A DNA stretch of 64,000 nucleotides from Bdellovibrio sp. 28-41-41 (GTDB lineage: Bacteria > Bdellovibrionota > Bdellovibrionia > Bdellovibrionales > Bdellovibrionaceae). The notes under the pieces are model-generated. The model saw only the letters and a program-made list of their open reading frames with translations. It was not told the origin of the DNA and did not search any database. Of the stretch, positions 12,730 through 44,705 are shown piece after piece; the stretch's first letter is position 1; each line of letters opens with the position of its first letter. The position numbers and the translations under genes were made by a program. The stretch lies in contig NCGL01000011.1 of the NCBI GenBank assembly GCA_002256935.1, positions 1-64,000 on the forward strand, in the 5' to 3' direction.

Positions 12730-13338
12730 TTAGTGAGAGTGGCCTTCAGGAGCGCCACCAAATGCGGCAATCTCTGCAATTCTTAAAAACCCGAGACCCG
12801 TGATAGCGATTTCATCGCCAGATTTTAAATCTTTTGAGCGGATCGTAATTTTGCCTCCAGATTTTCCAACCTGGTCAAAATCAATGCGTTTATAAAACCC
12901 TTCACGATAGCGGTATAAATTAACTTCAATACCGGCAGTAACAACGGCTTCTTTGGGAACGTCATAGGTATTTGCGCCCGATATTTTTATCTTTTTAATT
13001 TCAAAATTCTTTTCAGCATCAGGACCAAGCTTAATTCCCTCGGCTTCACTGGCTGCTAAAATTCCTTTATTGGGACCGACCTGAGTATTTTCTTCTTCGC
13101 CATGCTCATGTTCGTTTCCATGACCGTGCCCTTCCGACTCTCCTTCGGTGTGTTTATGTTCAGCTTCATGGGCTTCTTCTTTTTCATCTTCATGAGTACC
13201 GTGCTCTTTATGCGCCGTAGACTCAGCTTTGGGCTTTTTTTCCGACGAATGATCATGACCATGCTCGTCTTCAGCCAAAGCATAACCTCGCACTAGATAC
13301 GCAATTATTAAGCAAGCTCCAAATATATATTTTTTCAC
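12730..13338 (-). CDS. reduced CzcB-like adaptor with His-rich region
   Basis: 202 residues starting at GTG, with a GTGA overlap onto the czcC stop. Signal peptide, then a His/Glu-rich stretch (about residues 24-82, many HGH/EHEH repeats), then about 100 residues that resemble only the membrane-proximal domain of CzcB (VPKEAVV..., LKSGDEIAITGLGFLRIAE, AAFGG). The lipoyl and alpha-hairpin domains of a normal ~400-residue adaptor are missing. A similarly shortened paralogue is at 32897-33316, with the same terminal AFGG. It may bind metal and dock on CzcA, but it cannot form the usual hairpin bridge to TolC. Confidence 0.75.
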   Translation of the reverse strand: MKKYIFGACLIIAYLVRGYALAEDEHGHDHSSEKKPKAESTAHKEHGTHEDEKEEAHEAEHKHTEGESEGHGHGNEHEHGEEENTQVGPNKGILAASEAEGIKLGPDAEKNFEIKKIKISGANTYDVPKEAVVTAGIEVNLYRYREGFYKRIDFDQVGKSGGKITIRSKDLKSGDEIAITGLGFLRIAEIAAFGGAPEGHSH

Positions 13339-14567
13339 AGGACTACCTCGTTAAATTTATTATCAATAATAAGGACTCTTCCATAGGCATCGAGTGCTTC
13401 AAGTTCTGAAGCATTTCTTCGCTCTTCTAGGTCAAATAGTTGTCGATGGGCTTCAATTACAAGTGAGCTAGGCACGACTCCCTTAAAGAATTGGCGTTCA
13501 AGCTGCTCGTGCTTTTCATTAACGATACTTAAACTCAAAGAGCTTTTTAAACTTTGAATTGTTTGATTATACCGGCTAACAAGTTCAGACCGAGTCGAAG
13601 TGGCCTTACGTTTTGTTTGCTCTGCTATCATTTCAGCTTCAATCAAACGTTGGGCACTGTATGTACGACTCGGACCATTTTGGCTGAAAACAGGTAGAGG
13701 CATTGATAATGCTAAGCCAACGAATGTAGTGGATTCTCCATTCTCTTTTACGGCCTTCATAGAAGGGCCGATTTTTAAATCGGGCCAAGATTCCGATTCA
13801 GTTTTTTGGCGCTGACTTTTTGCGAGTTTCAAATCCGCTAATGCGGCTCTCACTTGTGGAGACTCATCAGTTGTTGAACTTCCATCCAGTGGAGTCCATG
13901 CCTTTTTTGGCAGAGGAAGATTTTTTGAAATCAGACTCTTCGGAAGGCCTGTTACCGCCATAATCTCCTGATATAACTTTTCTTCATCCGATTTTAGTTT
14001 TGTAAGTCGCAGTTGATGATCGGCCAGGGCCATCTTAAATACTGAAAGTGAAACATCTTGTTCTGGTGATAAAGCTGGCCGCTTCTGATACTGTTGGGAA
14101 ATCTTAGAAAAAGTTTCTACTGATTCTTCTTCAATATGAATTTCACTTTTTATATGTGCTAAGCGATACAACCCCAGCATCAATTCAAGTCGCGATCTAT
14201 GCACCCCTAGGTCCCTATTGGCTCTGGCGCGCTCGATTTCACTTTGCGCTTCGCTAATCAAAGCATCTTTTTTCCCACCGAGTCTGAGATTAAACAGAAG
14301 TGTAATATTGGTCTCTGAACGATCAGACCCTTTGGCAACCGTGTCTGCATCAAGGTCCGGATTAATCCATTGATTCGCGACATCCGCTAACTTTTCGGCA
14401 GATTTTAATTGCTGCTCAGAAATTTGAATGTCGGAAGAGCGTTTTTCAGCACAACGGACAAGATCGACATAACTACTAACTTTGCAATCAGCAACGGTCT
14501 CATCCGCATAGATTAATAGCGGTAACAAAAGTGAAAGCAAACCCACGAAGAAAGACATTTTACTCAT
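13335..14567 (-). CDS. czcC-like: TolC-family outer-membrane efflux protein (CzcC-like)
   Basis: 410 residues with a signal peptide and two long helical repeats typical of outer-membrane efflux proteins (QISEQQLKSAEKLADVANQW, then LADLKLAKSQRQKTE and FFKGVVPSSLVIEAHRQLFD). It forms the exit duct for the adjacent CzcA pump. It is closely similar in layout to the copy at 33313-34560 (GIIPSSLVIEIHRQM), which points to duplication of the whole czcICBA module. Confidence 0.88.
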   Translation of the reverse strand: MSKMSFFVGLLSLLLPLLIYADETVADCKVSSYVDLVRCAEKRSSDIQISEQQLKSAEKLADVANQWINPDLDADTVAKGSDRSETNITLLFNLRLGGKKDALISEAQSEIERARANRDLGVHRSRLELMLGLYRLAHIKSEIHIEEESVETFSKISQQYQKRPALSPEQDVSLSVFKMALADHQLRLTKLKSDEEKLYQEIMAVTGLPKSLISKNLPLPKKAWTPLDGSSTTDESPQVRAALADLKLAKSQRQKTESESWPDLKIGPSMKAVKENGESTTFVGLALSMPLPVFSQNGPSRTYSAQRLIEAEMIAEQTKRKATSTRSELVSRYNQTIQSLKSSLSLSIVNEKHEQLERQFFKGVVPSSLVIEAHRQLFDLEERRNASELEALDAYGRVLIIDNKFNEVVL

Positions 14568-14694
14568 TACAGAGATCTCCTTAAAATCGTCTTCAGCAAA
14601 TTGAAGCGAGCCACAGCAAACATGCTATGAATAAATCAAAGCAAATTTATTGCGAAAATTAATATGAAAATTTAAGAACGGTGATGAAGCCTAA

Positions 14695-15051
14695 TTAGGC
14701 GATCGGAGGGCGAAACGGACTAGTTTGAAAGTCATAAATTATGACTGAAACTCTAATAAAATATAAAATCTGGTTTGTATCAAAAACTGATACTTGAATC
14801 GATGGAGTTAAAGTAAATGGACAATGCCCGAGATGGCAATTACGACAGCCACTACTATTATGATTACAACCTGCATCTTGCTGATGGTTATGGTTCAAAT
14901 CATCTTGCTGTGAATTGGTTTTAATTTGGGAAGTCTGATTTTCAACAGACGTGATAGAGGAGGCACCTTTTTCATGGCAAATCGAATTCGCCTGGGAAAC
15001 GACCCCAACGAAAGTAATAATAGAAAAAATCCAAGCCATAACAAGTTTCAA
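14695..15051 (-). CDS. His/Cys-rich periplasmic protein with FRPPI tail (CzcI-like)
   Basis: 118 residues from a TTG (GAGGTTCTGT ribosome site) or an ATG 12 bases later. Signal peptide, Cys/His-rich middle (HNHQQDAGCNHNSSGCRNCH) and a C-terminus ending FRPPIA. The same plan (signal, His-rich loop, tail [FT][RK]PPI) appears at 34685-35092 and 37253-37618. Position directly ahead of czcC matches CzcI-type proteins of Cupriavidus, which are thought to modulate czc expression. I use that name only by analogy. Confidence 0.6.
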   Translation of the reverse strand: MKLVMAWIFSIITFVGVVSQANSICHEKGASSITSVENQTSQIKTNSQQDDLNHNHQQDAGCNHNSSGCRNCHLGHCPFTLTPSIQVSVFDTNQILYFIRVSVIIYDFQTSPFRPPIA

Positions 15052-44100: not shown

Positions 44101-44267
44101 AACCCCGCAGCTTCAGTCATAATCGTAACCGTAGGACGGTTTAAGTCAGGAAATACATCCACAGGCAAATGAGCCGCAATCCAGCCTCCATATGCTAAAA
44201 TAAATGCTGCGGTTGCAATGACTAATAATCTATGTGAAAGCGAAAATTTAATAATTCGATCAAGCAT
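41127..44267 (-). CDS. HME-RND pump of operon 3
   Basis: 1046 residues. Features: [40 protein letters not shown], TM4 [20 protein letters not shown], and [20 protein letters not shown]. It is neither the CzcA type of the first two pumps nor the CusA type of 24502; the exact Met triad is not present. ECF-type promoter at 44763-44789 and CsoR promoter upstream suggest copper or a related metal. The operon has no adaptor with a hairpin, only two small periplasmic proteins and a lipoprotein. Confidence 0.9.
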   Translation of the reverse strand: [1046 protein letters not shown]

Positions 44268-44279
44268 GTTTTTCTCTCT

Positions 44280-44705
44280 TTAGTGACGTCCGCCATGACC
44301 ATCATCAACAACTTCTAGCTTTAAAGGAAGAGGATAGGAAACCTCATTTCCGGTTTGGCCTTCTCTAGTTGAGTTGACTTTAAGACTTCCTTTCTTTTTC
44401 AGATTTACACTCTTTGGAAAAACACAGATGTAAAAATTTTCTTTAATTTTACATTTCGCCTTTGTCTTACTATTGTTATGTGTGATTTGCACATCAGATT
44501 TATTTACTGATGGATTCTTCCATTCCAAATCTAAAAGAAAAACTTTCACCGAGTTAGCACTTTCAGCAACGAGCTCTGTATGGAATGCACCAGGCATACG
44601 AATAAATCCACCATTGGGACCAGGCTTATCCTCCCCATGTGCTATAGCAAGGCTTGAACTTAAAATTACTAAACTCATAATATTGGTGATTAATTTTTTT
44701 CTCAT
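44280..44705 (-). CDS. small periplasmic protein with GPNGG motif
   Basis: 141 residues from the ATG at 44705 (an ATG at 44717 is also open). Signal peptide ending LAIA, mature start HGEDKPGPNGGFIRMPGAFH, then TELVAESANSVKVFLLDLEW, a Cys pair (AKCKIKENFYICVF) and a His-containing end (DGHGGRH). Related to 40396-40788. First gene after the third ECF-type promoter. Confidence 0.68.
   Translation of the reverse strand: MRKKLITNIMSLVILSSSLAIAHGEDKPGPNGGFIRMPGAFHTELVAESANSVKVFLLDLEWKNPSVNKSDVQITHNNSKTKAKCKIKENFYICVFPKSVNLKKKGSLKVNSTREGQTGNEVSYPLPLKLEVVDDGHGGRH

Follow-up and report, generated by a model that had tools for sequence, protein, structure and literature searches.

How a heavy-metal efflux (HME) pump of the resistance-nodulation-division (RND) type is joined to its outer-membrane duct when its adaptor lacks the part that reaches the duct is the question raised by a stretch of 64,000 nucleotides (hereafter the window) on contig NCGL01000011.1 of Bdellovibrio sp. 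28-41-41, which belongs to a 4.0-Mb genome of 153 contigs that is 93.5% complete. The window encodes four full-length HME-type RND permeases, all scoring above the TIGR00914 cut-off for CusA/CzcA (835-1225 bits against 701), and four ducts of the OEP/TolC family, all above the Pfam cut-off for PF02321 (59-100 bits). A preliminary description of this DNA had reported that no adaptor with a hairpin accompanies them, and hidden Markov models (HMMs) and profile comparison confirmed this for the window. In a normal adaptor a single chain runs through the membrane-proximal domain (MPD), beta-barrel, lipoyl domain and hairpin and back again, so that a clean excision of the inner layers is possible. 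Judged from sequence, the part retained here is the RND-facing half, namely barrel and MPD in the Cu/Ag-type module 2, the MPD alone in the CzcA-type modules 1 and 3, and no layer in module 4. We call this half RND-facing because of the contacts seen in AcrABZ-TolC: on AcrB, the MPD touches both docking and pore domains and the barrel touches the docking domain, whereas the lipoyl domain makes no contact with either partner and the tip of the hairpin touches TolC (PMC5404916). Since the duct-reaching part has been shed, pump and duct appear to be joined in a way that is without prior description. We read these modules as working heavy-metal RND pumps in which the adaptor was pared from the inside out and the duct docks directly on the pump, a reading to which we give an even chance.

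Domain content of the window modules

In modules 1 to 3 the gene order is duct, mini-adaptor, pump. Module 1, on the minus strand, consists of a TolC-family duct of 410 amino acids (aa) (13335..14567; PF02321, 74 bits; AlphaFold2 model with a mean predicted local distance difference test score (pLDDT) of 86.7), a mini-adaptor of 202 aa (12730..13338) and a CzcA/HME1-like RND permease of 1065 aa (9582..12779; TIGR00914, 1224.8 bits) with ALDFGIIVDGTVIVLDN in transmembrane segment 4 (TM4). Module 3, also on the minus strand, comprises a TolC-family duct of 415 aa (33313..34560; PF02321, 64.6 bits), a mini-adaptor of 139 aa (32897..33316) and a CzcA/HME1-like permease of 1051 aa (29745..32900; 1203.5 bits). 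The equivalent of CusA D405 is kept in all four window pumps.

The 202-aa and 139-aa proteins form one family, aligned together as A3. A family-library scan gave a weak, exclusively C-terminal adaptor match for the former and none for the latter, and HMMs of the lipoyl domain and barrel matched neither protein; the MPD_C model matched the 139-aa protein with an E-value of 0.0015. By hhalign, columns 41-115 of A3 match CusB 322-395 with an E-value of 3.5e-8 and a probability of 95, and the columns from 14 on match CusB ~76-105 with a probability of 59, collinear with the C-terminal match; these two segments of CusB are the C- and N-terminal parts of its MPD. From these alignments we conclude that the mini-adaptors are complete MPDs, predicted to combine an N-terminal strand with the C-terminal beta-roll, from which the equivalent of CusB ~105-321 has been excised. 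The earlier view that only the last CzcB-like domain is left thus captured the reduction and is refined by the N-terminal strand. In the 202-aa protein, a signal peptide and a His/Glu-rich segment precede the MPD (residues ~88-202). Its AlphaFold2 model, based on an alignment of 18 sequences, shows residues ~88-197 as an ordered domain rich in beta structure (in blocks of ten residues from 91 to 190, mean pLDDT is ~88-97) and no hairpin, which answers the earlier suggestion that predicted structures might disclose a hidden one. The top Foldseek match of this model in the PDB was 5a4g, a construct of the metal-binding and membrane-proximal parts of SilB, with the MPDs of CusB and BesA next among the top matches; the best E-value was weak (6.5e-3), with probabilities close to 1.0. 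A sequence search of the PDB with the MPD profile alone gave no match.

Module 2, on the plus strand, encodes a TolC-family duct of 404 aa (22465..23679; PF02321, 58.9 bits), a mini-CusB of 278 aa (23676..24512) and a CusA-like permease of 1089 aa (24502..27771; TIGR00914, 1027.8 bits) that keeps the equivalents of the Met triad M573/M623/M672 and of the proton-relay residues D405/E939/K984. The 278-aa protein begins with a heavy-metal-binding domain (HMBD) at residues 45-72 (PF19335, 47.2 bits), followed by an MPD strand, the barrel and the remainder of the MPD. It aligns to CusB 40-107 and then to CusB 287-394, and the matches of general adaptor models to it do not begin before the second half of the barrel (HlyD_D23, 147-198/214; RND_mfp, 169-305/322). 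Domain HMMs detected the barrel (barrel2, E 5e-7) and the MPD (MPD_C, E 4e-16) and gave no lipoyl match. The CusB alignment and the HMMs therefore bear out the reported lack of a hairpin, and the lipoyl domain is absent as well.

Module 4 (39148-44717, minus strand) runs from a GPNGG protein (44280..44717) through a permease of 1046 aa with no adaptor gene (41127..44267; TIGR00914, 835.6 bits), a small lipoprotein (40805..41179) and an HGG protein (40396..40788) to a TolC-family duct of 409 aa with canonical tip motifs (39148..40377; PF02321, 99.6 bits). A module devoid of an adaptor, described before as operon 3, does exist, and is the fourth by coordinate. Over 107 columns the HGG protein aligns to the N-terminal domain of a CzcB-type adaptor of full length from Thauera (hhalign, E 3.4e-6; shuffled control, E 0.62) and is predicted to be a free-standing homologue of that domain, so that the end of the adaptor retained in module 4, in the form of separate proteins, would differ from that in the other modules. 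The GPNGG protein probably represents this domain once more, on weaker evidence: it matches the downstream HGG family with an E-value of 8e-9, to which the signal peptide contributes in part, and the Thauera domain with an E-value of only 0.018.

The genome as a whole encodes nine full-length HME pumps, none with a hairpin adaptor alongside. The additional copies repeat the forms of the window, with MPD-only adaptors on contigs C44 and C116, a mini-CusB on C74, and HGG proteins on C74 and C21. The search for a shared full-length adaptor, proposed in the preliminary description, found no hairpin-bearing RND-type adaptor in this nearly complete genome; a hairpin was clear in one adaptor alone, a HlyD-type protein of 420 aa encoded on C70 beside a peptidase-type ATP-binding cassette (ABC) exporter.

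Distribution among relatives and order of loss

Of 141 genomes from the order, 59 encode the MPD-only family, and in the sample from the phylum Bdellovibrionota, a lineage of predatory bacteria, it occurs in 104 of 291 genomes. The order duct, mini-adaptor, CzcA is nearly always kept, with gene ends that mostly overlap, and dN/dS within the family is ~0.05-0.12, synonymous sites being saturated and several pairs yielding no dS by NG86. Relatives found with the mini-adaptor profile come from Bdellovibrionales, Bdellovibrionaceae and Bacteriovoracaceae metagenome-assembled genomes (MAGs) and from Bdellovibrio sp. qaytius. No match was found on 72,556 plasmids. A scan of GTDB genomes with a single peptide pattern, which could miss distant forms, returned only Bdellovibrionota and one bin labelled Streptomyces griseus; the contig concerned (CALQIT020000006.1) is of Bdellovibrionota type, and the bin is probably mislabelled or contaminated.

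A survey of 100 HME-RND loci from the order, picked by score class and not at random, allowed ~95 to be classified by the gene adjoining the pump, as a few ended at a contig edge or had an ambiguous neighbour. Nine loci had a full adaptor (class i), 12 an adaptor with a hairpin and without a lipoyl domain (class ii), 11 barrel and MPD (class iii) and 38 the MPD only (class iv); at six the duct directly preceded the pump (class v), and 19 had HGG proteins and no adaptor (class vi). The lipoyl HMM matched 9/9 adaptors of class i, 0/12 of class ii, 0/13 of class iii and 0/42 of class iv, and the barrel HMM 9/9, 12/12, 13/13 and 0/42, where the counts for classes iii and iv include the copies of the window and of its own genome. 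Class-i proteins were among the HMM seeds; two hairpin-less, lipoyl-bearing adaptors served as independent positive controls, and both were detected. Wherever the marker could be located, the stretch between MPD strand and barrel, which holds the hairpin in class ii, measures 79-81 aa in that class and 7-9 aa in class iii. All class-ii loci (L101, L104, L105, L108, L110, L112, L114, L115, L116, L122, L125 and L130) encode CusB-type adaptors that have kept the hairpin and lost both lipoyl halves, a form of which we know no prior description.

In a tree of the RND permeases, the CusA clade has pumps with full adaptors, E. coli CusA and SilA among them, followed by class ii and finally class iii; these groups are nested, with high support except at one node (0.83). 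This nesting indicates that within the CusA clade the lipoyl domain was lost first and the hairpin second. Class iv, for which no intermediates are known, forms one Bdellovibrionota group beside pseudomonadotal CzcA pumps with full or hairpin-less adaptors, and class vi forms one clade. A loss of hairpins throughout the lineage was rejected, as hairpin-bearing adaptors, both EmrA-type and full RND ones, occur in relatives from the same order and other members of the CusA clade keep theirs.

Coupling of pump and duct

The preliminary description had suggested that these ducts reach further than usual, and this did not hold. Aligned to TolC, the two long descending helices have lengths of 71 and 72-76 residues throughout the classes, with one outlier, against 70 and 75 in TolC, and in the AlphaFold2 model of the module 1 duct they span residues 99-161 (63 residues) and 298-361 (64 residues). 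A taller docking domain in the pumps of modules 1 and 3 was likewise rejected, since class-iv pumps have no insertion of at least 3 aa relative to reference pumps. Pumps of the module 2 class carry insertions near CusA positions 506, 639, 953 and 962, none of which we take to lie within the docking domain, its limits being assumed; the Met triad of the Cu site and the proton-relay residues are kept in 12/12 class-iii pumps.

The entrance tip of the duct has changed. In TolC, G147 lies within a Val-Gly-Leu/Thr element that contacts the hairpins of AcrA (PMC5404916). This glycine is kept in 7/7 reference ducts, 8/8 of class i, 8/11 of class ii and 18/18 of class vi; it is replaced by Asp in 12/12 class-iii ducts, remains Gly in only 6/33 of class iv and is lost from all six ducts of class v. 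Residue 148 is Pro in 32 of the 33 class-iv ducts, and each pump class has a duct-tip signature of its own.

By analogy with known pumps, the retained piece of the adaptor would form a ring, a collar on the porter and docking domains of the RND pump. This collar would deliver metal by means of the HMBD and the His-rich or HGG segments and would trigger transport, as CusB and ZneB do, or it may instead act as a gate. The docking domain would then grip the duct directly through the remodelled entrance tips, which would take the place of the hairpins. Several observations weigh against such direct docking. No part of the pumps is extended so as to narrow the gap, and the link in AcrAB-TolC is tip-to-tip through the hairpins. 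The class-vi ducts, of the module 4 type (L179-L198), have G147, G365, D153 and D371 in 18/18 cases though they have no adaptor, so that remodelling of the tip is not a simple consequence of hairpin absence. Moreover, pumps from Shewanella and Xanthomonas whose adaptors are hairpin-less and lipoyl-bearing keep the tip glycines, and the changes in tip and adaptor were inherited together and represent only two or three independent events.

Other explanations of the short adaptors have to be weighed against direct docking. That they are degenerate or mis-assembled remnants was suggested by the shortness of their open reading frames relative to known adaptors, but we regard this as barely credible, and for modules 1-3 as refuted by conservation: the short form shows conserved residues, synteny and signs of purifying selection, its AlphaFold2 model is structured, and it has been kept across more than 100 genomes, which rules out chance or artefact and agrees with the earlier opinion that a reduction shared by the modules is unlikely to be random decay. 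A full-length adaptor encoded elsewhere might instead be borrowed in trans, the mini-adaptor being an accessory. Promiscuous adaptors are known from other pumps, relatives do carry EmrA-type and full RND adaptors, and the canonical tip residues of the module-4-class ducts make module 4 the most plausible case. Nevertheless, the one hairpin adaptor of the genome, on C70, adjoins an ABC exporter, none of the nine HME pumps has one alongside, and the hairpin site of the duct is altered in classes iii and iv; we therefore consider borrowing unlikely.

It is similarly improbable, in our view, that pump and duct are uncoupled, so that the RND protein and its MPD would shift metal inside the periplasm, or hand it to binders there, and its release by the duct would be independent. 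The modules indeed encode no bridge, and metal binders (HMBD, cupredoxin and His-rich proteins) surround the pumps; yet the genes for duct, mini-adaptor and pump are tightly linked in many families, mostly with overlapping ends, and the duct-tip signature is specific to each pump class. A bridge formed by an unrelated protein has a slim chance, and no consistent candidate was found. The small lipoprotein family, which has no Pfam match, has three paralogues near the window pumps (8609-8965, 37687-38070 and 40805-41179) and members in several relatives. YbjP offers a precedent, as this lipoprotein is able to bind TolC, but efflux under standard laboratory conditions does not require it (PMC13082787). 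Within the limited flanks covered by the survey, the family also adjoins the pump at only 8 of 95 loci, which is too inconsistent for a universal bridge, and most members, at 106-145 aa, have no hairpin-like length.

Returning to direct docking, a broader proposal is that the whole phylum runs its metal RND pumps as two-part, bridge-free conduits in which the adaptor has become an RND-bound sensor or trigger for metal, with relatives preserving the intermediates; we put this forward tentatively, as somewhat short of an even chance. How adaptors link, and whether transporter and duct touch, has long been disputed between deep-wrapping and tip-to-tip models, with BesA as an awkward exception. 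The loci described here provide a graded natural series on related pumps, from full adaptors through those lacking the lipoyl domain, those lacking lipoyl domain and hairpin and those consisting of the MPD only to none. Together with the class-specific duct tips, this series makes it testable which adaptor domain is needed to load metal, to trigger the pump and to recruit the duct, and it suggests that the RND-facing domain has an essential role beyond bridging.

Neighbouring genes and comparison with known systems

Upstream of the module 1 duct lies a gene for a small, His-rich exported protein ending in FRPPIA (14695..15051, minus strand), and small open reading frames resembling it are also found upstream of ducts at related loci; we take it, from its position, to correspond to CzcI. 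A cupredoxin-like small protein is encoded 3' of cusA in module 2 (27612..28097, plus strand; PF13473, 52.9 bits), and a similar frame follows the paralogue on C74. A metal-related cluster adjoins the pumps (6389-21297), its members being named by eye and not by HMM: a P-type ATPase (6389-8593), a major facilitator superfamily protein (15410-16729), an ArsR/rhodanese regulator (16680-17384), an arsenate-reductase-like protein (17926-18336) and a cytochrome c/FTR1 iron permease-like protein (19240-21297). Elsewhere in the genome, the genes of two HAE-type RND pumps come directly after that of a TolC-family duct, and none for an adaptor lies beside them (L033:3429-7979 on C75 and L035:3561-8067 on C135). 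The adaptors of two MacB-like ABC operons on C149 lack the hairpin and still give a barrel-sandwich match (L028:4558-5364 and L029:4380-5204), and in a further MacB-like operon on C87 (L025:3460-4434) the adaptor has a stub of only ~27 residues.

Module 2 resembles the Cu/Ag systems CusCFBA and SilCFBA in its CusA-like pump with the Met triad, its CusB-alignable barrel and MPD and its metal-binding N-terminal element. It differs in that the lipoyl and helical-bundle region of CusB (within ~105-287) is absent, the HMBD replaces the N-terminal Met site of CusB, and no CusF-like gene was identified. Modules 1 and 3 share with the Zn/Co/Cd systems CzcCBA and ZneCBA the order duct, adaptor, RND pump, the HME1-type TM4 motif and His-rich periplasmic parts; the adaptors of those systems have ~390-530 aa, whereas those of the class of modules 1 and 3 have 140-290 aa and consist of the MPD alone. 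Plasmids of Shewanella baltica (L094:3484-4425) and Xanthomonas citri (L095:3545-4492) encode HME1-type pumps whose CzcB-like adaptors are 313 and 315 aa long. These adaptors are hairpin-less like those of the window, but unlike them keep lipoyl domain and barrel, a link of a few residues connecting the two halves of the lipoyl domain in a BesA-like manner.

The closest likeness is to BesABC of Borrelia burgdorferi (BesA, PDB 4KKS/4KKT/4KKU), which also combines an RND pump, a hairpin-less adaptor and altered duct gates. Direct contact of duct and transporter was first proposed for that system, and hairpin-less adaptor sequences were noted in Borrelia, Treponema, Spirochaeta and Legionella (PMC3807786); in BesC the gates are disrupted and the C-terminus is truncated (PMC4446572). 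The preliminary description was thus correct about the missing hairpins but overlooked this precedent, as well as the losses of lipoyl domain and barrel. BesABC is a drug pump and the window pumps are of the metal type; BesA keeps lipoyl domain, barrel and MPD, whereas the window adaptors lack the lipoyl domain throughout and the barrel in two cases. No description of adaptors without a lipoyl domain, or consisting of the MPD only, was found in the open-access literature, to which the search was confined, subscription papers lying outside it. Hairpin-less adaptors are known from BesA, and the further loss of the lipoyl domain, and even of the barrel, is what is added here.

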